Shown here: piece after piece, positions 25,151-63,330 of the stretch
How the letters are laid out: each line of letters begins with the position of its first letter
How positions within the stretch are numbered: the stretch's first letter is position 1
From: Candidatus Chlorohelix allophototropha
Lineage (GTDB): Bacteria > Chloroflexota > Chloroflexia > Chloroheliales > Chloroheliaceae
Reading direction: 5' to 3'
Assembly: GCF_030389965.1 (NCBI RefSeq)
Contig: NZ_CP128399.1
Coordinates: 310,001 to 374,000, forward strand
DNA length: 64,000 nucleotides
Notes under the pieces: model-generated
Database searches by the model: none
Told to the model about the DNA's origin: nothing
What the model saw: only the letters and a program-made list of their open reading frames with translations
Made by a program: the position numbers and the translations under genes

Positions 25151-27112
25151 TTACTTTTTCACGCCACCTATACGGTAGGTGAAGTATTCCGGGTCGGTAA
25201 GGTCGGTTCGGAAGGCGCTATTTCCACTGGATAGGAGGTTGCGCAGATATGCCCGGCTGAAAGGTCGCTCGATATTGACCAGCGGATACAGGTCATTCAA
25301 AGATGCACGCAGCAAATCCGCTTGCTTTACGCCCACAAGTTCAAAGGCGTTAGCCACCAGAAAGTCGGTTTTCTTGCGGTCTGATTCTTCGAGACGTTTC
25401 TGGTTATCAAGTTTGCTGAAGCGTTCGGGCGTAAGAATTTCGTTCTCATTTACCTGGCATTCAAAACCAATGGTTCGGTAAACGAACTTCTGCCGTCTCT
25501 CATCGTAAAACAACAGACGACGTTCTTGTTCTTGGCTACTAACCTCGTACTCAATTATAAAGTGATTAGTGCGAATGCCCTGAGTTACCAGCAATTTTGC
25601 ACCCGGTATCAGGTTGTTAGCATAGAAGTCTTCCAACCCGGCAATCCACCCGCCGCGAGTACCACTTGGAAAGTGCAACTCGGCAGTGTAGGTAAATTCC
25701 AGTTGGGGCGCTTCAAGGCGCAGAATGACCAACTTCTGTTCTTCTAATAAACCGGACGGGAATAAACTACGGGCGTTTAAGTCATAGGGCAGCAAACCAT
25801 TTTCGTACTCGTAAAAAGTAATGGTATGCTCCCATTGTTTGCGTCCTTTTACGGTAGTTAGAACAATCGGGTCATTTAAGTTTGTATCTTCGAGGAACTT
25901 ATAGTCTAACCCGATTTCGGATGCCTTGCGTTTGCCTGGACCAAGGGCGTTCATACCCGGTGCAGTCCAAATGCGATCGTCTTCCGCGCCAACAAACTCG
26001 AAATCTTTCTTTTCGCGAGAAAGGCGGAAGTTTAAGGAGAAGCGTTTCGCTTCGTAATCCTGATCATTATTGCGTTTGTTAAAGACATCCGTCAATATAG
26101 CGGTGTCGGTAACAGGCCCGCCAACTTCATTCATATAATCGCGAATGCGGCGGAAATCCCCTTTGGTCAACCTTTCGGTTTGATCTTCGAGGAACCAATC
26201 ATTGGCAAAGTTGATAAAGCGCAAATCCTGATTCAAGCTGGTAGCCAAAGCAGAAGAGAAATAGTCACCATATGTATCCAGAATTTCACTGGCAGATTTG
26301 CTCAAATCGACTTCAACGCCTTCGTCCAGCGTCACAATAACAGGTCCTGCTGGCGCAGCAACCGGTTTAGGCGCGGCTACAACAGGTTCAGCGACAGGAG
26401 GCTTGGCTTCAATCGGTTTAGGTGCGGCTACAACAGGCTCAACGACAGGAGGCTTGGCTTCAATCGGCTTAGGTGCGGCTACAACAGGCTCAACGACAGG
26501 AGGCTTGGCTTCAATCGGTTTAGGCGCGGCTACAACAGGCTCAACGACAGGAGGCTTGGCTTCAATCGGTTTAGGCGCGGCTACAACAGGCTCTTTTGCT
26601 GCAATTTTCTGCTCGGCATTGGCTGTTTTTGGTTCTGCCGCAAACGGTAAAGGCAGCGCAAATGTAGAAGTCGTTTCTTGGCGGGCGGGTACATCAACCG
26701 CTTTAGCATGTAATTCTTCATCAGACATAGGCACTACCGCTTTGGCTCCTTCAAAAAGGCGAGTTTTAAAGCTGTGATGGTCATATACAACCGGCCCGGG
26801 AGTAGGAGCAATCCCTAATTTAGTGGTTTTGAATGTAATTTGCCCTTCTTCGTTTTCTTCTCGTAAGAAAACGCCAGGGTTAGCGGATAGAGCTTTGTCA
26901 ATAATGGGCGCTAGCGCATCAATGTTGTCAAGCCCCTTATATTTTTCATCGGCAAAAAATTGAGCCAGATTCTCAAGAGACTGGCGGATATTGGCGCGGG
27001 CGGACATAGTCACACCTTGCATTCGCATCAGCGCAAAAACTTCCTGAGCAAGGCTTTGTTCTTCGGGAGTACCTGCGAGATCCAATTTGGGCGGCTGATA
27101 TAGCTGTGCCAT
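25151..27112 (-). CDS. Large protein with Pro-rich 17-residue repeats, unknown
   Basis: 653 residues, with no signal peptide or membrane helix. Residues 1-165 form a mostly helical acidic region. Residues about 172-250 are four to five copies of a 17-residue unit like 'EPVVAAPKPIEAKPPVV', and the remaining 400 residues look globular with many aromatic and charged residues. I do not recognise the domain. A very similar composition ('APKPVEAPKP', 'PVVEA') occurs in the protein at 53951-56359 of the csm locus, raising a possible functional link. AAGGAGAGG precedes ATG 27112. A small gene lies just upstream. Confidence 0.8.
   Translation of the reverse strand: MAQLYQPPKLDLAGTPEEQSLAQEVFALMRMQGVTMSARANIRQSLENLAQFFADEKYKGLDNIDALAPIIDKALSANPGVFLREENEEGQITFKTTKLGIAPTPGPVVYDHHSFKTRLFEGAKAVVPMSDEELHAKAVDVPARQETTSTFALPLPFAAEPKTANAEQKIAAKEPVVAAPKPIEAKPPVVEPVVAAPKPIEAKPPVVEPVVAAPKPIEAKPPVVEPVVAAPKPIEAKPPVAEPVVAAPKPVAAPAGPVIVTLDEGVEVDLSKSASEILDTYGDYFSSALATSLNQDLRFINFANDWFLEDQTERLTKGDFRRIRDYMNEVGGPVTDTAILTDVFNKRNNDQDYEAKRFSLNFRLSREKKDFEFVGAEDDRIWTAPGMNALGPGKRKASEIGLDYKFLEDTNLNDPIVLTTVKGRKQWEHTITFYEYENGLLPYDLNARSLFPSGLLEEQKLVILRLEAPQLEFTYTAELHFPSGTRGGWIAGLEDFYANNLIPGAKLLVTQGIRTNHFIIEYEVSSQEQERRLLFYDERRQKFVYRTIGFECQVNENEILTPERFSKLDNQKRLEESDRKKTDFLVANAFELVGVKQADLLRASLNDLYPLVNIERPFSRAYLRNLLSSGNSAFRTDLTDPEYFTYRIGGVKK
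26361..26595 (-). repeat. 51-bp coding tandem repeat
   Basis: Four to five nearly identical 51-base units encoding the 17-residue proline-rich repeat of the 653-residue protein. Their high identity suggests recent expansion or homogenisation. Confidence 0.85.
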
Positions 27113-28188: not shown

Positions 28189-28629
28189 TTACTTCGCTTG
28201 ATATAGTTCCAGAATTGCATTCAGAATACTTTGCGGGTCAGGCGGAGAACCTGCCAGATAAGCATCAATTTTCCTGCCTACCGATAGCTTTAAATCGGTT
28301 TCTTTAACCGATTCTGAAAGCTGGATTGGTCCAGCAACTCCATAACAACTGGCAAAGGGCGCACCGCTGATGGTATCAGAACCTAACACCAGCAATTTTA
28401 CATCCGGCGAGAGGCTTTCCACTAAACGCATGGCATGTTCAGCTGCTTTCACTGTGCCTATTCCTGTAATAACAAGTAGGTCGCATTGTTTGGGACTGGA
28501 AGTTAAATAGATACCGAAATGTCCGGCATTGTAAGGTGGCACAAAAATAGACTCAAACTCCAACTGCGTAGCGTTGGAGCCTCCAATATTGAGTGGGAAA
28601 ACTGCAACCGATAGCCTGTTTTTTTTCAT
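28189..28629 (-). CDS. NuoB/hydrogenase small-subunit homologue lacking cluster cysteines
   Basis: 146 residues from ATG 28629, which overlaps the preceding stop as ATGA; a longer frame to 28677 exists but would lie inside that gene. The fold is that of NuoB and group-4 hydrogenase small subunits: 'CDLLVITGIGTVKAAEHAMRLVE', 'KLLVLGSDTISGAPF' and 'DAYLAGSPPDPQSILNAIL'. All expected [4Fe-4S] ligands are replaced: the N-terminal CxxC by Ser18 and Thr21, the GxC motif by Asp/Ile in 'GSDTISGA', and GCPP by 'GSPP'. It therefore cannot hold the usual proximal cluster. The partner subunits are upstream. Confidence 0.8.
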   Translation of the reverse strand: MKKNRLSVAVFPLNIGGSNATQLEFESIFVPPYNAGHFGIYLTSSPKQCDLLVITGIGTVKAAEHAMRLVESLSPDVKLLVLGSDTISGAPFASCYGVAGPIQLSESVKETDLKLSVGRKIDAYLAGSPPDPQSILNAILELYQAK

Positions 28630-30014
28630 GATGCTTTCAGCGCACTCCCCAACCAATCCAACGGTAATGCCGACCATATGCCAAAAAATATCATTACAGC
28701 AATCAGCAACAAGATTATTGCGCTTGTACCCATAGGCTCGGCTTTTGTTTTTAGTCCAGGTATGCCTCGTCCCATAAACTGATTATGGAAAAATCGCAAA
28801 TAGGCAAGTAACCACAAAGTGATGGCAAGACCTCCAAGTAATGCCCAACCGATCCCCTCTTGCGCGGCACTTTGCAGAATTAGATATTTGCCCGGAAACC
28901 CACTGATTAGGGGTGCGCCCGCCAATGCCAGCATCCCGAAGCTCAATCCTACAGTTGCCACCGGCATATGCCTTCCCAACCCGCTAAGCCCCGTCATCAT
29001 CCGTTCGTAATTGCAATAGTATATTACTGCCAACGATGTGAAAATGAGCAATTGTGCCAAAGCAAAATTCGCCGCTTCAAAAACTGCTCCGCGTAACCCG
29101 GTAGTGTGGGGTGTTGCCAATCCGAATAGTACGAGGCTCAAATTTCCGCTTCCGGTATAAGCCAGCATTTTACCAAAACTGCTCTGTGCCATACCAAATA
29201 ACCCTGATAAAACTGCTCCTGACATGCCAAGCGCCATGACAGGCAAAGTCTGGCTAGTATTATTTAGCAAAAGGGTGGGATTTTGTTGTAAAAAATCTAC
29301 TAGAAATATAACTGCCGCACCGTTTATAAGTCCTAGCACCAGCCAACTTGCTAAGGCAGGAGCATCTTCAATTACTTGTGGTAGCCAAAGGTTAAAGGGG
29401 AAAACACCAAAACGCAAAGCGAATCCGGTAATTGCAAGCGCCACGATTACTTTAATCAAGCCGATTTGTTGTGGGTCGAGGCGAACTCGCTCCAAAAAAA
29501 CCTGTGCCACAAACAAAAGCAAGCCAAATAGCACCGTGACTATCAAGTAACGTACCGCGCTTTTAACCACCCGTACAAAGCGTTCTTCGTCTTCTGCACC
29601 TACATCCACAACTGAAATAATGCTAAAAAACTCGGCGGCTACAAAGCAAAGGGTTACTACAAATACGTTATTAATAAAAAGCGCTGCATTAATTGTGCCG
29701 CAAACTGTGAGTGTTACCGGAGCATAACGTCCACTTTTCAGGTTATCGGTAAGATACGCTACCAGCAGGCTGATGCTCGCTAGGATAAAGAGGAATGTTA
29801 AAAATAGTTGGGCTATAGGAGTGAAGAAGAAAGCATTATCAGCGTTTGTCGGGTTTTCAATCCACACCATTACAGTACTTGCCACTAATCCGGCTACCGC
29901 TATAGTCACTGCTACTTTATAGCTCCAGCGATATTTTTCAGCCGGAAATAATGCCTCAATCAGCACTAGAAACAGTGTAGCTGCAAAAGGTAGTACGATA
30001 ACCGTAAAAGGCAC
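28626..30014 (-). CDS. NuoN/HyfF-like antiporter-type membrane subunit
   Basis: 462 residues, about 13-14 membrane helices, of the Mrp/NuoL-M-N family that forms proton- or sodium-conducting channels. The conserved TM5 Glu is in 'FVAAEFFSIISVV'. The central helix carries 'FALRFGVFPFNLWLPQVIEDAPA', with Arg near the position of the usual Lys, and another Lys is in 'SSFGKMLAYTGSGN'. It starts with GTG 30014 directly after the previous stop. It is one of three channel-type subunits in this operon. Confidence 0.85.
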   Translation of the reverse strand: MPFTVIVLPFAATLFLVLIEALFPAEKYRWSYKVAVTIAVAGLVASTVMVWIENPTNADNAFFFTPIAQLFLTFLFILASISLLVAYLTDNLKSGRYAPVTLTVCGTINAALFINNVFVVTLCFVAAEFFSIISVVDVGAEDEERFVRVVKSAVRYLIVTVLFGLLLFVAQVFLERVRLDPQQIGLIKVIVALAITGFALRFGVFPFNLWLPQVIEDAPALASWLVLGLINGAAVIFLVDFLQQNPTLLLNNTSQTLPVMALGMSGAVLSGLFGMAQSSFGKMLAYTGSGNLSLVLFGLATPHTTGLRGAVFEAANFALAQLLIFTSLAVIYYCNYERMMTGLSGLGRHMPVATVGLSFGMLALAGAPLISGFPGKYLILQSAAQEGIGWALLGGLAITLWLLAYLRFFHNQFMGRGIPGLKTKAEPMGTSAIILLLIAVMIFFGIWSALPLDWLGSALKAS

Positions 30015-30776
30015 TTATTTGACCGCCTTTCTTCCGGCTGTGAAAGCATCACTCAGGTTTAGCGTTTTAAGTTTATTATAGAAAAGTATGGCAAGGTATG
30101 AAATCAGAAGCGCCAGCAAAATGGTGATTGCCGCGCTAAAGCCCAACACCAAAGGATTATCACCACTGCGTAATAGTGAGTAGAGTAGGTCTGCACCGTT
30201 TAAGGCAGTTAACAAGCCAATTCCCAGTTTGAGAATATCGCTGCCCACTACCATAATGGTAACACCAATCGAGAATGTCCAGTAGAAGGCGAAATCGCCC
30301 AAAAAATTGCCGGAGAAAGGCAACAACGTTGCAAATGCATAGGTGGCTACTGCTGCAATAATGCTTGTACCTATTGGCAGCATATAATCAATATAGCGAA
30401 AACGGCTAAGTTGTTCTTTTTGCTGGCGGCGAAAAAAGCGGCGCAAACCCCCGGTTCCGGCTGCATCTTCCTCAGCCTCTTGCTGCTTCAGCCTGCGTCG
30501 CTCGATTATAATTGCATACCCGGTTAGAAAAATTATTAACGCCGCAATAACCCCCGACATAGTTTTGAGAAAAACTGCCAGTGGTATTGAACCGAGCATT
30601 ACACGCTGGGCAGTTCCATTCTGATCGTTAGCTACTACTGCCACCACAAAGTATTGAAAGACCAGCGCCGGGGTTATAATTACCCAGTCTTTGTACACTG
30701 CCAACGCTACACAGGATGCTACCAGTAGCCCTATATAGAAAATATAATTACCAGCGGTAAGTGTCAGAAAATCCAC
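30015..30776 (-). CDS. NuoK/HyfE-like membrane subunit
   Basis: 253 residues with about six membrane helices and a basic cytoplasmic loop ('RRLKQQEAEEDAAG', residues 96-110). The C-terminal half resembles NuoK and HyfE ('LKLGIGLLTALNGADLLYSLL'). It begins with GTG 30776, preceded by AAGGTGA, four bases after the NuoL-like stop. The family assignment is weaker than for its neighbours because HyfE-type proteins are poorly conserved. Confidence 0.65.
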   Translation of the reverse strand: MDFLTLTAGNYIFYIGLLVASCVALAVYKDWVIITPALVFQYFVVAVVANDQNGTAQRVMLGSIPLAVFLKTMSGVIAALIIFLTGYAIIIERRRLKQQEAEEDAAGTGGLRRFFRRQQKEQLSRFRYIDYMLPIGTSIIAAVATYAFATLLPFSGNFLGDFAFYWTFSIGVTIMVVGSDILKLGIGLLTALNGADLLYSLLRSGDNPLVLGFSAAITILLALLISYLAILFYNKLKTLNLSDAFTAGRKAVK

Positions 30777-30780
30777 AAAA

Positions 30781-32787
30781 TCACCTTGTTAGCAGGAAGA
30801 TAAAAAGGATTACCACCAAAGCCGCCAGCGCCGCATAAAATTTCTCGGTCATCCATTCCAGCACCCACACAATAAAACCTAGAATTTTAAGACCGATTCC
30901 ACCAAACCAACCTCCCAAAAAGCCGGTATCGAATATGCGTATTATATAGCGGGCAGTTTGCTGGAAAGAGCTAAAATAATCATTAATGCTCAGGCGAGGT
31001 GGGATTTCACCACGCGGGGCGGTAGGTTTGATGGCTTCCGTGCCGATTTTGAAAAAGTCATCATCAAACCCGGCAGGAATGCTTTCCTTGTAAATTTTCA
31101 GGCTCTTTTTTTTGCTCTCGCGTCGGCGTTGCGCTTCTTCTTCTTCCGCCCCAAAAAGTAAACCTCCCTGATAGGCAGGGGAGGCATGTACACTGCCAAA
31201 CTTGAGGTAAATTCCAAATAATACCAGTGCGCCTATTACTACTATTAGCCCCAACCATCCGGTTGAAATAAAATTAGCGTTTACTGTGGGTGTCGTTTCT
31301 GCGCTCATCTTGGTTGGGAGTTGCTCTACCCAACCAGAAGCTAGAGATGGAGAAAAACCGCTTATTATCGCGAAGAGTCCGAAAACGCTCGCCATTCCCG
31401 GTGGTATCCATGCTACGAGATTGCGCCCATCCACCGTCTGTCTTTCTACGGTCAGAAAGGTTATCAGCCCATTTGAAAGCCCAATTGCCAGTATCATCAA
31501 GCCAATCAACGCTACCAATAAGTAAAAGCCATAGCCCTGTGTTGCTAGATTCTCCAGAGTGGTATAGCGCGAAATATAGGCAGGAGTGAGCGGTAAACCC
31601 ACCGCTACTGCCATTCCAAGCAAATAAAGCGCTATCAATGCGCCTCGGTAGCGGGGTGAACGTTCTAACGGTTTGGGAGTTTCTCGTCCTTTTTTCAACA
31701 AAGGCGTATTTTCAATTTGGAGCAAATCTCCGCATAAAAACAGGATTGGAACCGATAAGCTAAGGGCGAAAAATTGCCATGCCGCAGCGTTGAACTGTTT
31801 TAGACCTAGCGCAATTATCACAAAACCAAACTGGGCGGAAGCCGCATAAGCTGCTTTGCCTATCAGGTCAGCTTCTTTGGCTACCATCCAACCGCAAGCC
31901 AATACAGAAATAGCTCCTACGGGTAATAATAACGGTGAGGCTGCTTTAAATAAGTCTAATCTGTCACCGGCTATGCTATTCAACCGTGCCGGTAAATAGA
32001 GCGCTAACGGTAAGATACCACCTGCCATTAGCAGTGCAAATGCGCCTCCCGGCAAGTTTTTAAGGGAACCAGACCAAGCTTGGAAGGGGAATTGCGCGGT
32101 TTTAATCATCGCCCCGACCCATACCAGTACAAAGAAAAGTGTTTCGATGGAGGACGGTGAGATTGCAGTATATTGGGTGATGCCACCGTTGCGTGAAACT
32201 ATCACCAATAAAGGCGCAAGAATAACAAACCCACCCGCAACGCTGACAACATAGGCATAGAAACTGGAACGCGAGGAACTTGCCCCACGCAAACCCGGTC
32301 CTGCCAGCAAATAGAGCCATAAGCCTAAAGCTTCTAGCCAACCGTATAACCAAATGAGGTCAGAAGAATAGAAAGCAGCTAAGGCTGAACCTTCTACCAG
32401 AAATAGGAGACCATATAGTCTGCCGCCGGTTATTGCTTCGCCTTCTTCGGCGGAAGGTTGCCGAGCTACTAGATAGATGATAACCAAGAAGCCCAAAATC
32501 GCCAGTGGAAGGGTGAAGAAGTAGGAGAGTATATCGGCGCGAAAGGCAAATTGTACTTTTGCTTCCGGCAGGGGCGACCAGCTAAACAATGTAGCGGAGG
32601 GATTGCCAGAAGCGACTCCAAAACCAAGCGCTATTTGCCCTGCCAGTGTAACCATACTAACCAATACCGCCAGCGAGGCAAGCGCGGCTTGTTCTGTTTC
32701 AAAAAGCCAGCCGAAGAAGAAGAAAGCAACGCCTACTATGAGCGGTAAAATGATGCTTATAGGTAACAAAATGTCAAAGGGATTCAA
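30781..32787 (-). CDS. NuoL/HyfB-like antiporter-type membrane subunit
   Basis: 668 residues, about 15-16 membrane helices. Family hallmarks are the TM5 Glu in 'YGWLEALGLWLYLL', the central Lys motif 'GAMIKTAQFPFQAWSGSL' and 'KEADLIGKAAYAASAQFGF'. The C-terminus has a polar stretch and a final helix, like the piston-helix end of NuoL but shorter. The start is TTG 32787 with AAAGG six bases before it. It would couple the soluble subunits to ion pumping. Confidence 0.87.
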   Translation of the reverse strand: MNPFDILLPISIILPLIVGVAFFFFGWLFETEQAALASLAVLVSMVTLAGQIALGFGVASGNPSATLFSWSPLPEAKVQFAFRADILSYFFTLPLAILGFLVIIYLVARQPSAEEGEAITGGRLYGLLFLVEGSALAAFYSSDLIWLYGWLEALGLWLYLLAGPGLRGASSSRSSFYAYVVSVAGGFVILAPLLVIVSRNGGITQYTAISPSSIETLFFVLVWVGAMIKTAQFPFQAWSGSLKNLPGGAFALLMAGGILPLALYLPARLNSIAGDRLDLFKAASPLLLPVGAISVLACGWMVAKEADLIGKAAYAASAQFGFVIIALGLKQFNAAAWQFFALSLSVPILFLCGDLLQIENTPLLKKGRETPKPLERSPRYRGALIALYLLGMAVAVGLPLTPAYISRYTTLENLATQGYGFYLLVALIGLMILAIGLSNGLITFLTVERQTVDGRNLVAWIPPGMASVFGLFAIISGFSPSLASGWVEQLPTKMSAETTPTVNANFISTGWLGLIVVIGALVLFGIYLKFGSVHASPAYQGGLLFGAEEEEAQRRRESKKKSLKIYKESIPAGFDDDFFKIGTEAIKPTAPRGEIPPRLSINDYFSSFQQTARYIIRIFDTGFLGGWFGGIGLKILGFIVWVLEWMTEKFYAALAALVVILFIFLLTR

Positions 32788-32790
32788 GTG

Positions 32791-33870
32791 TTACCTTTCT
32801 CCACATGCCATGCAATAATCCAGCGATACAAGCAATGCTCCCGCATCCTCAACGTCCTGACCGAGCAACGAGAAGGGTAAAGCAGGCAGGTTACACATTG
32901 TAGGGGGGCGTAGCTTTAGCCTTGCTATACAGCCTTTCTCATCCGAAGCAACATAACAAAAAAGTGCGCCTCTCGGTGATTCTACCAGAGAATACACTTC
33001 TTTGTCGGGGGGGAAAGCTGCGGGTAGAAGCTGTTCATCCTTCAGGTTGCCTTCTGGCATTTTAAGAAGTGCTTGTCCTGCTAGGTTAAGACTTTCTAGA
33101 GCTTCTAGCAAGCGTACTACCAGCCGCGCATAAAGACTACCACTGTTCTGAGTTACTACTCGGAAATCAAGCTCGCCATATGCAGCGTAAGGTTCTGATC
33201 GGCGGATGTCATCAGGAATATCACTGGCACGCGCGACAGGACCAACCAACCCGTATTCATCAGCCAGTTCTGCTGATATTATTCCGATATATTCGGTGCG
33301 GTGTTCGAGTTGGTGGTTTTCCAGCAATTGGCTAACCGATTCATACACATTCTTACGTAAACGCTCAACCGCGGCTTGAAATTCCATCGGTAATGGTAAC
33401 GTGCGCATGATTCCACCGGGGATTGTGAAGGTATCATGTATGCGGTTGCCGGAAGCAGCCATTAACTGGCGCACTCCTTCGGCTTCTTCCTCAAGACGGC
33501 TGGCAATCAGGCGTTTTCCAAGCATTCGGAGGGTACGTGCAGAATTGGCAAGATGGCTGGCGGCGCGTTCGAGTTCTGCCATTACGGTGCGGATATAGCT
33601 GGCGCGAAGTGGGGGATTAAGATCGGCGAGCTTTTCAAGGGCTAATGTTACTGCCAAAGTATTGGCATAAGAGCATTTTCCGCAAATTTGAGCAACCACG
33701 CCGGGCAATTGATGCGGCAAAAGGTGAGTCAATAAACCCTCAACCCCACGATGGTTAAAGCCAAGCTCAATTTCGACCTTTTCTATTTTAGTTCCGTGTA
33801 TTTCCAGCTTATAACAAACAGGTTCATCTAGCGCCGGATGCCACGGACCAATAGGTAACAGGTAGGGCAT
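32791..33870 (-). CDS. Group-4 [NiFe]-hydrogenase-like large subunit (NuoD homologue)
   Basis: 359 residues. 'PIGPWHPALDEP' and 'ELGFNHRGVEGLL' place it with NuoD and group-4 hydrogenase large subunits. Unlike NuoD it keeps both metal-binding pairs: Cys63/Cys66 in 'AQICGKCSYAN' and Cys353/Cys356 in the final 'DYCMACGER'. The first motif is altered from ERxCGxCxxxH, with Ala-Gln replacing Glu-Arg and Asn70 replacing His, and Tyr replaces Pro in the second. Whether NiFe(CN)2CO is inserted is open. No hydrogenase maturation gene is in the window. GAGGA precedes ATG 33870. Confidence 0.85.
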   Translation of the reverse strand: MPYLLPIGPWHPALDEPVCYKLEIHGTKIEKVEIELGFNHRGVEGLLTHLLPHQLPGVVAQICGKCSYANTLAVTLALEKLADLNPPLRASYIRTVMAELERAASHLANSARTLRMLGKRLIASRLEEEAEGVRQLMAASGNRIHDTFTIPGGIMRTLPLPMEFQAAVERLRKNVYESVSQLLENHQLEHRTEYIGIISAELADEYGLVGPVARASDIPDDIRRSEPYAAYGELDFRVVTQNSGSLYARLVVRLLEALESLNLAGQALLKMPEGNLKDEQLLPAAFPPDKEVYSLVESPRGALFCYVASDEKGCIARLKLRPPTMCNLPALPFSLLGQDVEDAGALLVSLDYCMACGER

Positions 33871-33965: not shown

Positions 33966-34000
33966 AAGGCTCGCCTTCTAAAAAGGCGAGCCTTATTTTG
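33966..34000. terminator. Isolated bidirectional hairpin terminator
   Basis: AAGGCTCGCCTT (33966-33977) and AAGGCGAGCCTT (33983-33994) form a perfect 12-bp stem. T-rich sequence follows on both strands. No recognised gene ends here on either strand. Confidence 0.7.
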
Positions 34001-53950: not shown

Positions 53951-56359
53951 ATGACGCAGGATGTAAAAAATCTGGGCGATGCCGGATTGCAAGGTATTCA
54001 ACTACCTACCAGTATTTACATAGGAAAAAATGTAGTTCGAAGGCATGTGCTGGAGTTTTACAAACTTGCGGCAGCCCATAAGCTTCTAGCGCAAGGCGCT
54101 CAAGTTCTAGCAGTATTTGACTGTGTGGTACTGGAACAGCATGGTGGTCGTCTTGGCTCTTTTACCCTGCATGATTACGCGGTACTTACCACTACTAACC
54201 TCATTACATGGGGTAGGGGTCAGAACCGAGACCTAGTTGACAGGTTTGAGTGGTCGGATGTGGTTCTTGAAAAATTCGGAAGACGTAGCCCTCTCGAAGG
54301 CATGGTTAAAGTTTCAAATCGAACTCGCTCGGCAGTTTCAAAACGAAGAATAGCAGTTCGTACCAAAAACGAGAATGTTGACGAACCTATTCCTCAATTT
54401 GAAGGTGCTGACAAAGAAACCGGAATAACCCTGTATCTAGACTTGATGCCGTTTGATGATGTACGCACTTGTGCTAGCATGATTTATTTCCTAAGCAATA
54501 AAGGTGGTGAAACACCGGGTATTGACGCCTTTAATGCAAAATTCAAGTCGGAGTTGGCGGAATCCACCGAGCGTTTGACTACTATTGCCAATGCAATGAA
54601 GTCATTCTATGTCCAGCAAGCTAACGGCGTTTGGATAGAAAAAGGTTATACCGAAGAAACGGAAATGCTCGAAAGATTATCCGCTAGTGCAGCAAGCAAG
54701 GAAGAGTCTAACAAAAATAAGGATTCCAAATTACGTAGAGGCTATGTTTCTCCTTATAAGTTGGGGAAGGGTGGTGTTGCTCCAAAAACGCGTACGCCCG
54801 TAGCTACCCCAAAGGTTGCAGCTTTACCTAAAGTGACATCGGTTAGTAAGACTACCAGTAGTGCAGATGAGGACTGGTTTTATTCAGATTTTGGCAAGCT
54901 TGATAAAAAAGAGAGTAGCCAGCCAGTAGCCAGTGCTATAAGCACGCCAGCGCCAAAACCAGCACCAACCCCTCGTGCTGCTACCCCGGTTCGCTCAGCT
55001 AAACCGGCAGTAAGACCAACTCCTGCGCCTAAAGTTGCAAAGGTAAAGGAAGAAAAGCCAGTAGTATCAAAGAATGAAAGAACTGTCGCAATGCCATTTG
55101 GTGTATCACTCGGTATGGGTGCACTTAATCTTTTCACGTTCAGTCGAATCATTCGGGGGTTATGGCTTGACCCACGCACTTTAGGCTTACGAATATCGGG
55201 CATTAGCGGTAATTCTGCCTTGCTTATGGATTTATTTGGTACGGTTGCCACTGATGCCGATGCCCGTCAAAATGCGATTAATCGTCTGCGTAGCAACATT
55301 GATAATGGTCCAATCGCAAAGAATGTTATCTTGCATTATACGATTTATCCCTTCCTGAAGCCGGTGTTGGATGCTGTTGCTTCCCCGGAAATAGATCGGG
55401 TTATTCGTAAGGTTAAGGTACGGGCTGTTGAACAAGTTGCTGCTCCGGTTAAAAACCCTGTAGAAAGCAAGCCAATTGCAACAACTGCCAAAGTTCCGGT
55501 AGCAAAGCCGGTAGAAGCGCCAAAGCCAGTTACTCCTGTGCCAGTGGTTGAGGCTGTAAAGCCAGTAGAGGCGCCGAAACCAGCAGAAGCGCCAAAGCCA
55601 GTTACTCCTGCTCCGGTGGTTGAAGCAGCCAAGAAGGTAGAGCCACCAAAACCAGTGGAAGCTCCGAAGCCAGTTACTCCTGTGCCAGTGGTTGAAGCTG
55701 TAAAGCCAGTAGAGGCGCCGAAACCAGCAGAAGCTCCGAAGCCAGTTACTCCTGCTCTGGTGGTTGAAGCAACCAAGAAGGTAGAGCCACCAAAACCAGC
55801 AGAAGCTCCAAAGCCCGTTGCATCCGCTCCGACCGTAGCAGCCGTAAAACCGGTAGAAGCCCCGAAGCCAGCGGAAGCTCCAAAGCCAGTTACTCCTGCT
55901 CCGGTGGTTGAAGCAGCCAAGAAGGTAGAGCCACCAAAACCAGCAGAAGCGCCAAAGCCAGTTACCCCGGCTCCGGTGGTTGAGGCTATCAAGAAGGTAG
56001 AGCCACCAAAGCCAGCGGAAGCGCCAAAGCCTGTAACGCCCGCTCCGACCGTAGCGTTTGTAAAGCCGGTGGAAGCTCCGAAGCCAATAACCTCTTCTCC
56101 GGTGGTTGATGCTGCAAAAAAAGCAATGGAAGCTAAACCAAATGAAGCGACTAGTCCGGCTGCTAAAACGCCAGAGAAACCAAAAGTTGAGGAGAAGTTG
56201 CCAGTACAGCAACCTCCAAAAGTAGATGCTGCTGGTATTGAAGGGACAGACGCAACTACAAAAATAAATATTTCTGCCCCTAAAGTAACCGACCCGACTG
56301 CTTCGCTTGGTAAAGAAGACGAGAAGCCACCTGAACCAAGTAAGCTAGATAAAATTTAG
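53951..56359 (+). CDS. csmA-linked protein B: PH-like N-domain plus Pro/Lys-rich repeats
   Basis: 802 residues. The N-terminal domain (about 15-240) matches protein A: 'LHDYAVLTTTNLITWGRGQ' aligns with 'LSDFILITNTRVTLWMRDQ'. A conserved-looking segment at about 380-490 ('GVSLGMGALNLFTFSRIIRG') resembles a helical structural core. Residues about 519-720 are about nine copies of a 24-residue unit like 'VVEAVKPVEAPKPAEAPKPV', giving a long extended rod, and the end is acidic. AAGGAG precedes ATG 53951. It ends the operon before a strong terminator. Function not recognised; a scaffold on the chlorosome surface is a reasonable hypothesis. Confidence 0.76.
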   Translation: MTQDVKNLGDAGLQGIQLPTSIYIGKNVVRRHVLEFYKLAAAHKLLAQGAQVLAVFDCVVLEQHGGRLGSFTLHDYAVLTTTNLITWGRGQNRDLVDRFEWSDVVLEKFGRRSPLEGMVKVSNRTRSAVSKRRIAVRTKNENVDEPIPQFEGADKETGITLYLDLMPFDDVRTCASMIYFLSNKGGETPGIDAFNAKFKSELAESTERLTTIANAMKSFYVQQANGVWIEKGYTEETEMLERLSASAASKEESNKNKDSKLRRGYVSPYKLGKGGVAPKTRTPVATPKVAALPKVTSVSKTTSSADEDWFYSDFGKLDKKESSQPVASAISTPAPKPAPTPRAATPVRSAKPAVRPTPAPKVAKVKEEKPVVSKNERTVAMPFGVSLGMGALNLFTFSRIIRGLWLDPRTLGLRISGISGNSALLMDLFGTVATDADARQNAINRLRSNIDNGPIAKNVILHYTIYPFLKPVLDAVASPEIDRVIRKVKVRAVEQVAAPVKNPVESKPIATTAKVPVAKPVEAPKPVTPVPVVEAVKPVEAPKPAEAPKPVTPAPVVEAAKKVEPPKPVEAPKPVTPVPVVEAVKPVEAPKPAEAPKPVTPALVVEATKKVEPPKPAEAPKPVASAPTVAAVKPVEAPKPAEAPKPVTPAPVVEAAKKVEPPKPAEAPKPVTPAPVVEAIKKVEPPKPAEAPKPVTPAPTVAFVKPVEAPKPITSSPVVDAAKKAMEAKPNEATSPAAKTPEKPKVEEKLPVQQPPKVDAAGIEGTDATTKINISAPKVTDPTASLGKEDEKPPEPSKLDKI
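55507..56110 (+). repeat. 72-bp coding tandem repeat array
   Basis: About nine degenerate 72-base units encoding the 24-residue Pro/Lys/Glu/Ala repeat of protein B. Two alternating variants are visible, one with 'VKPVEAPKP' and one with 'KKVEPPKP', suggesting duplication of a two-unit block. Confidence 0.88.
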
Positions 56360-62727: not shown

Positions 62728-63330
62728 ATGGGTAATGAGCTTTATCGTGTTGAAGATTTTTTCACTATAAATGCAACTCGTCCCGGTGATGCTCAATCAA
62801 TTATGAGCGCCTCTCCGGTGGGGGGTATGGTCACTACTACCGTTGATAACTTGGCAAATTGGGGGCGAAAATCCTCTTTATGGCCTGCTCTATTTGGGTT
62901 GGCTTGTTGCGCTATCGAAATGATGGCGACAGGGGGCGCTAGGTTTGATATGGCACGTTTTGGTTCGGAAGTATTCCGAGCTTCCCCACGACAAGCTGAT
63001 TTGATGATTGTGGCGGGGCGTGTTTCTGCTAAGATGGCTCCTGCCGTTCGCCAAATTTACGAACAGATGCCCGGTCCTAAATGGGTAATTGCGATGGGAG
63101 CATGCGCCAGTTGTGGTGGCGTATTCAACAATTATGCTATTGTACAGGGCGTAGATTTGATAGTGCCGGTAGATGTTTATGTGGCAGGTTGTCCACCTAA
63201 TCCCGAAGCGCTATTGGAAGGCTTTCAAATTTTACAGAAAAAAATCATGGCAGGCGTGCCCAATCCACCTGATCCGATGAGTTATGCCCCGGAGGTAGTG
63301 AGTGACCCCAACTTCGGACGAACCCGCTAA
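62728..63330 (+). CDS. nuoB: NADH-quinone oxidoreductase subunit B
   Basis: 200 residues. It carries cluster N2, with all ligands present: the double Cys in '[10 protein letters not shown]', one in '[10 protein letters not shown]' and one in '[11 protein letters not shown]'. It starts three bases after nuoA and overlaps nuoC. It makes a useful internal reference for the cysteine-less homologue at 28189-28629. Confidence 0.97.

Follow-up and report, generated by a model that had tools for sequence, protein, structure and literature searches.

How could a complex of the complex I/group 4 hydrogenase superfamily work if its small subunit has lost the residues that bind its iron-sulfur cluster? 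The question is raised by an operon in the window analysed here, a 64,000-nucleotide stretch of the Candidatus Chlorohelix allophototropha genome (contig NZ_CP128399.1, positions 310,001 to 374,000). Five tightly spaced genes lie on its minus strand in the order L, M, E, N, S, with S last, and would together encode most of a divergent member of that superfamily:

32791–33870, minus strand: L, large subunit of the NuoD/HycE/MbhL type, 359 aa (Complex1_49kDa, 163.6 bits; NiFeSe_Hases, 31.3)
33673–33684, minus strand: first CxxC of L (Cys63, Cys66), invariant in 5/5 Chloroheliaceae
32803–32814, minus strand: second CxxC of L (Cys353, Cys356), invariant in 5/5 Chloroheliaceae
30781–32787, minus strand: M, NuoL-like antiporter-type subunit, 668 aa, which keeps Glu152 and Lys229 (Proton_antipo_M, 57.6 bits)
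30015–30776, minus strand: E, membrane protein of 253 aa and marker of this complex (no Pfam family above cut-off)
28626–30014, minus strand: N, NuoN/HyfF-like antiporter-type subunit, 462 aa (Proton_antipo_M, 84.3 bits)
28189–28629, minus strand: S, subunit of the NuoB/HycG/MbhJ type, 146 aa, without proximal-cluster ligands (profile, alignment and predicted fold)

The S frame is open from an ATG at 28629, which overlaps the stop codon of the upstream gene (ATGA), to a stop at 28189. S matches the Pfam family Oxidored_q6 at 32.2 bits (cut-off 27), and its nearest solved chain by sequence is MbhJ (6cfw_J; E 3e-11), with NdhK also alignable. Its predicted fold, from a modest model based on three sequences (mean pLDDT 68.8; 31–43 for the other four models), matches NuoB/MbhJ chains with E-values down to 2.8e-7 and TM-scores of about 0.6–0.66. 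In the alignments with MbhJ and NdhK, SCNGC is replaced in S by SNAT, GAC by GSD and GCPP by GSPP. The four ligand columns, and the comparator encoded in the same window, are as follows:

28576–28578, minus strand: codon of Ser18 in S, first ligand Cys column (CxxC); Ser in 5/5 Chloroheliaceae
28567–28569, minus strand: codon of Thr21, second ligand Cys column; T, T, T, S, C in Chloroheliaceae
28375–28377, minus strand: codon of Asp85, third ligand Cys column (GxC); D, D, D, D, E in Chloroheliaceae
28246–28248, minus strand: codon of Ser128, fourth ligand Cys column (GCPP); S, S, S, A, A in Chloroheliaceae
62728–63330, plus strand: ordinary nuoB outside the complex, with all four ligand Cys in the alignment

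The alignments thus bear out the preliminary description, which had read these positions as Ser/Thr, Asp and GSPP and had contrasted them with a nuoB in the same window that keeps all four cysteines. Judged from its sequence, S is predicted to be unable to hold a proximal or N2-type cluster, and the usual exit for electrons from the large subunit would be closed, as had been proposed.

Relatives of S are encoded in all four other sampled Chloroheliaceae genomes, with 56, 49, 47 and 49% identity and with S/T/D/A, S/T/D/S, S/S/D/A and S/C/E/S in the ligand columns. Ligand cysteines therefore number 0/4 in four genomes and 1/4 in the fifth (G086), the ligand loss extends to all five, and the suggestion that close relatives might have kept the cysteines found no support. 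The other way out that had been considered, with the two leftover cysteines of S (in KQCDLL and FASCYG) as alternative ligands, can be ruled out, as neither place has a Cys in any of the four relatives. In a named collection of contigs, an alignment used as query picked out complex-bearing contigs, presumably those of the four relatives, that are assigned to 'Candidatus Chloroheliaceae bacterium L227-5C', Chloroflexi bacterium 54-19, RYN_336 and isolate 14. In three Chloroheliaceae genomes S is encoded apart from L-M-E-N.

We found no NuoH gene in the L-M-E-N-S operon. A weak fourth PF00146 match per genome in 5/5 Chloroheliaceae led instead to a second locus, where a NuoH-like gene, H, always adjoins a gene, I, whose HycF-like product has two 4Fe-4S motifs and, at its C terminus, a quartet of Cys. 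By profile, I resembles HyfH (99.2%) and HycF (99.0%), and H resembles HyfC (94.3%). In HycF the Cys quartet holds a metal ion, according to the accessible part of PMC9474812. Homology and constant pairing suggest that H and I are subunits of this complex, and homology is what points to co-assembly of the products of the split loci. The HycF-like protein was specific to Chloroheliaceae among 35 genomes searched (363–477 bits in 5/5, at most 48 bits in the 30 others).

The complex is best read, on present sequence comparisons, as Ehr-like. Ehr complexes resemble it in that one cluster of group 4 hydrogenase/complex I-like genes encodes L, S and antiporter-like subunits; in the accessible text of PMC6349859 and PMC10284858, through which Marreiros et al. 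2013 is cited here, they are described as having a large subunit without [NiFe]-binding residues and no assigned function. The Chloroheliaceae form departs from that account: both CxxC pairs are still present in L, and the cluster has gone from the small subunit instead, although loss of the large-subunit [NiFe] ligands does occur in other carrier families. The two CxxC pairs of L, found in 5/5 Chloroheliaceae, are a trait of group 4 [NiFe] hydrogenases, and L and S best match MbhL/HycE and MbhJ/HycG (for L the nearest solved chain by sequence is MbhL, E 6e-44), with I again similar to HyfH/HycF. Unlike Mbh (6cfw), Hyc (7z0s) and Hyf, however, S is here without proximal-cluster ligands, the L1/L2 surroundings are altered, E is unlike HyfE by profile, H is very divergent and the genes are spread over two or three loci. 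Respiratory complex I has homologous subunits (NuoB, NuoD, NuoL, NuoN, NuoH, NuoI), and ordinary nuo genes are also present in the genome, but its NuoD lacks CxxC and its NuoB has a consecutive-Cys N2 site, whereas here L has hydrogenase-type CxxC pairs and cluster N2 is absent; counterparts of NuoA/C/E/F/G/J/K were not seen in the operon. In Mrp-type cation/proton antiporters, NuoL/NuoN-type subunits act without redox parts; here, in contrast, L, S and H are retained and we identified no Mrp-specific subunits. The accessible parts of PMC3150298 and PMC8004040 list two complex I clusters in Chloroflexus and do not mention the operon, a search of the Chlorohelix paper for hydrogenase or nuo terms gave none, and we found no description of this operon, or of a small subunit without its cluster, in the open-licence literature. 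Ehr complexes are already known, and the cluster-less small subunit seems new, on the weak evidence that such an absence gives.

To see how far the complex extends we used a class-wide sample of 158 Chloroflexia genomes. A profile of E gave one strong copy per genome in 80 of them, namely the five Chloroheliaceae and 75 others, and the latter presumably include Chloroflexus aurantiacus, C. aggregans, Roseiflexus sp. RS-1 and Herpetosiphon aurantiacus. In these 75 the genes follow, completely or partly, the order L-M-E-N-S-H-ABC ATPase-membrane protein. Profile comparison of Chloroheliaceae with the other families gave hhalign probabilities of 100 for L, 97.9 for M, 99.8 for E, 100 for N, 98.5 for S and 92 for H. 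In a tree of L, all 38 rows from the complex stand apart from eight outgroup rows (HycE, HyfG, NuoCD, and the Chloroheliaceae's own NuoD and Hyc-like proteins) with support 98/93, and the taxonomic families f1 (Chloroheliaceae) to f5 are recovered, as expected under vertical inheritance, which we consider the best reading for the complex in Chloroflexia.

Across these families the parts that would carry electrons have been lost in several ways. Among the 46 genomes of families f1–f6 in which S was found, a cluster-capable ligand set is present in 0/5 of f1 and 0/8 of f3, and four Cys in 8/8 of f2, 4/5 of f4, 19/19 of f5 and 1/1 of f6. The ligand columns of f3 read T/E/A/D, S/E/A/I or S/E/T/D (the last in G050). 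In a further 29 genomes (28 of f2, one of f5), N and H share a contig but have no S gene between them, and searching all 29 genome-wide with the S profile gave NuoB-level matches only; the other five of the 34 genomes without S (G049, G069, G070, G081, G089) are not counted as losses. By lineage, S has all four ligand Cys in Roseiflexus-type genomes and no ligand Cys in Herpetosiphon-type ones, and Chloroflexus-type genomes lack the subunit. A reading from synteny that f3 lacks S altogether proved wrong, since the genome-wide search found S at a second locus in seven genomes; that of G029 and that of G004 lie beyond a contig end. Outside Chloroheliaceae the four-Cys set of L is complete in 48 of the 75 carriers and incomplete in 27. 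On a tree built from three proteins for 39 of the 80 genomes, five changes are required to explain the S state and eight to explain the L four-Cys state; that tree alone would also fit a single loss shared by f1 and f3 with later regain, but separate losses are simpler because the outgroup proteins have the cysteines and the replacements differ. With these losses of S ligands, of S and of L cysteines, and with the complex-specific HycF-like protein confined to Chloroheliaceae, no family examined has a complete electron wire.

We therefore lean, with some reserve, towards a non-redox L-S pair in a conformationally controlled membrane assembly of ion-conducting or antiporter type. In Chloroheliaceae, S would have been retained for a structural role, without any cofactor, as a wedge that separates the large subunit from the membrane arm, no electrons would pass from the large subunit through S, the complex would work without redox chemistry at L-S, and the four Cys of L would hold a structural metal. 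The sequences directly show the ligand loss and its conservation, the operon and its relatives, and the parallel losses; that S is structural, that the complex works without redox chemistry, that L holds a metal and that ions are transported are the elements that we infer. Of the two options in the preliminary description, a non-redox complex acting as a regulated ion channel or electron flow by another route, the non-redox part of the first gains from the ligand loss in a second family and from the losses of S and of L cysteines in others. Its regulated-channel part fares less well. Chloroheliaceae M has Glu152 (TM5) and Lys229 (TM7) in 5/5, at the places of E144 and K229 of NuoL, and ion conduction in this family is plausible. 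N, however, has lost most channel residues (the TM7 Lys is Arg, the TM8 Lys is absent and the TM5 Glu is present in 1/5), and M of the other families has neither the channel Glu (0/68 aligned) nor the Lys (0/68), with only four charged residues conserved at 85%, so that conduction outside Chloroheliaceae appears doubtful. The loss in M makes it less likely that all carriers share one ion-pumping function, and it is one of the reasons why our confidence in the preferred reading is no more than moderate. Subunit E may be the functional heart of the complex; it has no match by sequence among solved structures, has a conserved Asp and Lys in Chloroheliaceae and in other families, and shows the lowest dN/dS of the subunits (below); its predicted structure (pLDDT 51) was left unused.

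The other route of the preliminary description is possible as well, though on the evidence rather unlikely: L of Chloroheliaceae might still have a [NiFe] or other redox site, with electrons leaving by a path such as slow direct exchange with the cluster pair in the HycF-like protein, or might act as an H2-responsive switch with no electron exit. A remnant redox function of this kind is suggested by E16, R300 and D351, residues of a hydrogenase pocket that are retained in L together with the four Cys in 5/5, by the HycF-like protein beside H in 5/5, and by HypE in 5/5 and HypD in 4/5 genomes (in G086, hypE ends about 70 bases from the contig end, and hypD may be cut off). Roles for the HycE equivalents of E16, R300 and D351 are described in the accessible part of PMC9474812. 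The motifs around the cysteines are nonetheless QxCGxCxxxN and D(Y/F)CxAC in 5/5 (L1 Arg to Gln, L1 His to Asn, and Pro of the L2 DPC to Tyr or Phe), in place of the RxCGxCxxxH and DPCxxC surroundings of group 4 [NiFe] hydrogenase large subunits. HypD, moreover, is the protein that makes the Fe(CN)2CO moiety for the [NiFe] site, and it was not found in 31 of the 75 carriers outside Chloroheliaceae, 16 of which (including 11/11 of genus g37) have L with four Cys; the four Cys can thus persist without a [NiFe] site. The Hyp genes of G000 could be explained by other hydrogenase-type proteins (a Hyc-like L), and bypassing the proximal cluster would probably leave a long gap for electrons to cross. 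Within about 10 kb on either side of the hyp genes (less at contig ends; three genomes), we recognised no large subunit.

Less probable again, to the point of being clearly unlikely, is a wholly non-redox machine in which ATP hydrolysis replaces electron input in Chloroflexales- and Herpetosiphon-type genomes and the Chloroheliaceae form is a gated ion conductor built around E and M. It is suggested by the S and H genes of the former genomes, which run straight into those for an ABC ATPase and a membrane protein, and, for the Chloroheliaceae form, by the absence there of that membrane-protein gene (0/5, compared with 4/5 of the other genomes searched).

The changed columns of S might instead hold a different cofactor or metal through Ser, Thr and Asp. 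Such a site would fit the invariant Ser18 and the acidic residue (Asp or Glu) that occupies position 85 in 5/5, but position 128 is Ala in 2/5, position 21 varies, and the second family has the other residue sets given above; with replacements differing between f1 and f3, S has no conserved substitute ligand set, and we regard this reading as improbable.

A decaying, functionless relic operon is less credible still. Cofactor ligands and channel residues have indeed gone in many lineages, but every frame is open and dN/dS is far below 1 for each subunit for which it could be computed: among the three closest genomes, 0.067–0.103 for S, 0.064–0.070 for L, 0.061–0.102 for M and 0.023–0.036 for E, with 0.061 for N from a single computable close pair (for most distant pairs, saturation prevented an estimate). 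Identity across genera is 61–66% for L and 63–66% for E, and the complex is kept in about half of the class sample. The S gene is under purifying selection, which speaks against both sequencing error and decay, and open frames with these ratios rule out S as a pseudogene. Sequencing error or misassembly in the window can be set aside almost entirely, as the same changes occur in five separate genomes of three genera.

How redox chemistry is coupled to ion pumping is a central open question for complex I. The homologous complexes described here form a natural series that has shed, in differing combinations, the cluster site, cysteines of the large subunit, the small subunit as a whole and channel residues. 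Such a series shows what evolution is able to discard and what it has to retain, and with carriers in culture, presumably including Chloroflexus, Roseiflexus and Herpetosiphon, the question is open to experiment.

Some further observations concern the neighbourhood of these genes. In most carriers outside Chloroheliaceae, the ABC ATPase and membrane-protein genes come after the NuoH-like gene (L087:13401-15184, L165:7966-9761 and equivalents), the membrane protein being 250–270 aa long and without a Pfam match, and in the split operons of Herpetosiphon-type genomes they stay with S and H. The genome to which the window belongs also encodes, at L055:9136-11776, a four-Cys large subunit of the Hyc-like kind, together with a small subunit that has a fused ferredoxin domain with two clusters and in which every ligand is present. 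G086 has a second Hyc/Ehr-like pair (L056:9484-11745), with a large subunit lacking the CxxC pairs and a small subunit with 1/4 ligand Cys, which looks like a double loss that took place separately. In the window, a perfect-looking hairpin with a T-rich tail on both strands lies upstream of the L gene (33966–33994) and could be a terminator common to the flanking genes, and the proteins encoded at 25151–27112 and 53951–56359 contain long proline/valine/lysine-rich tandem repeats of the KPVEAPKP type.
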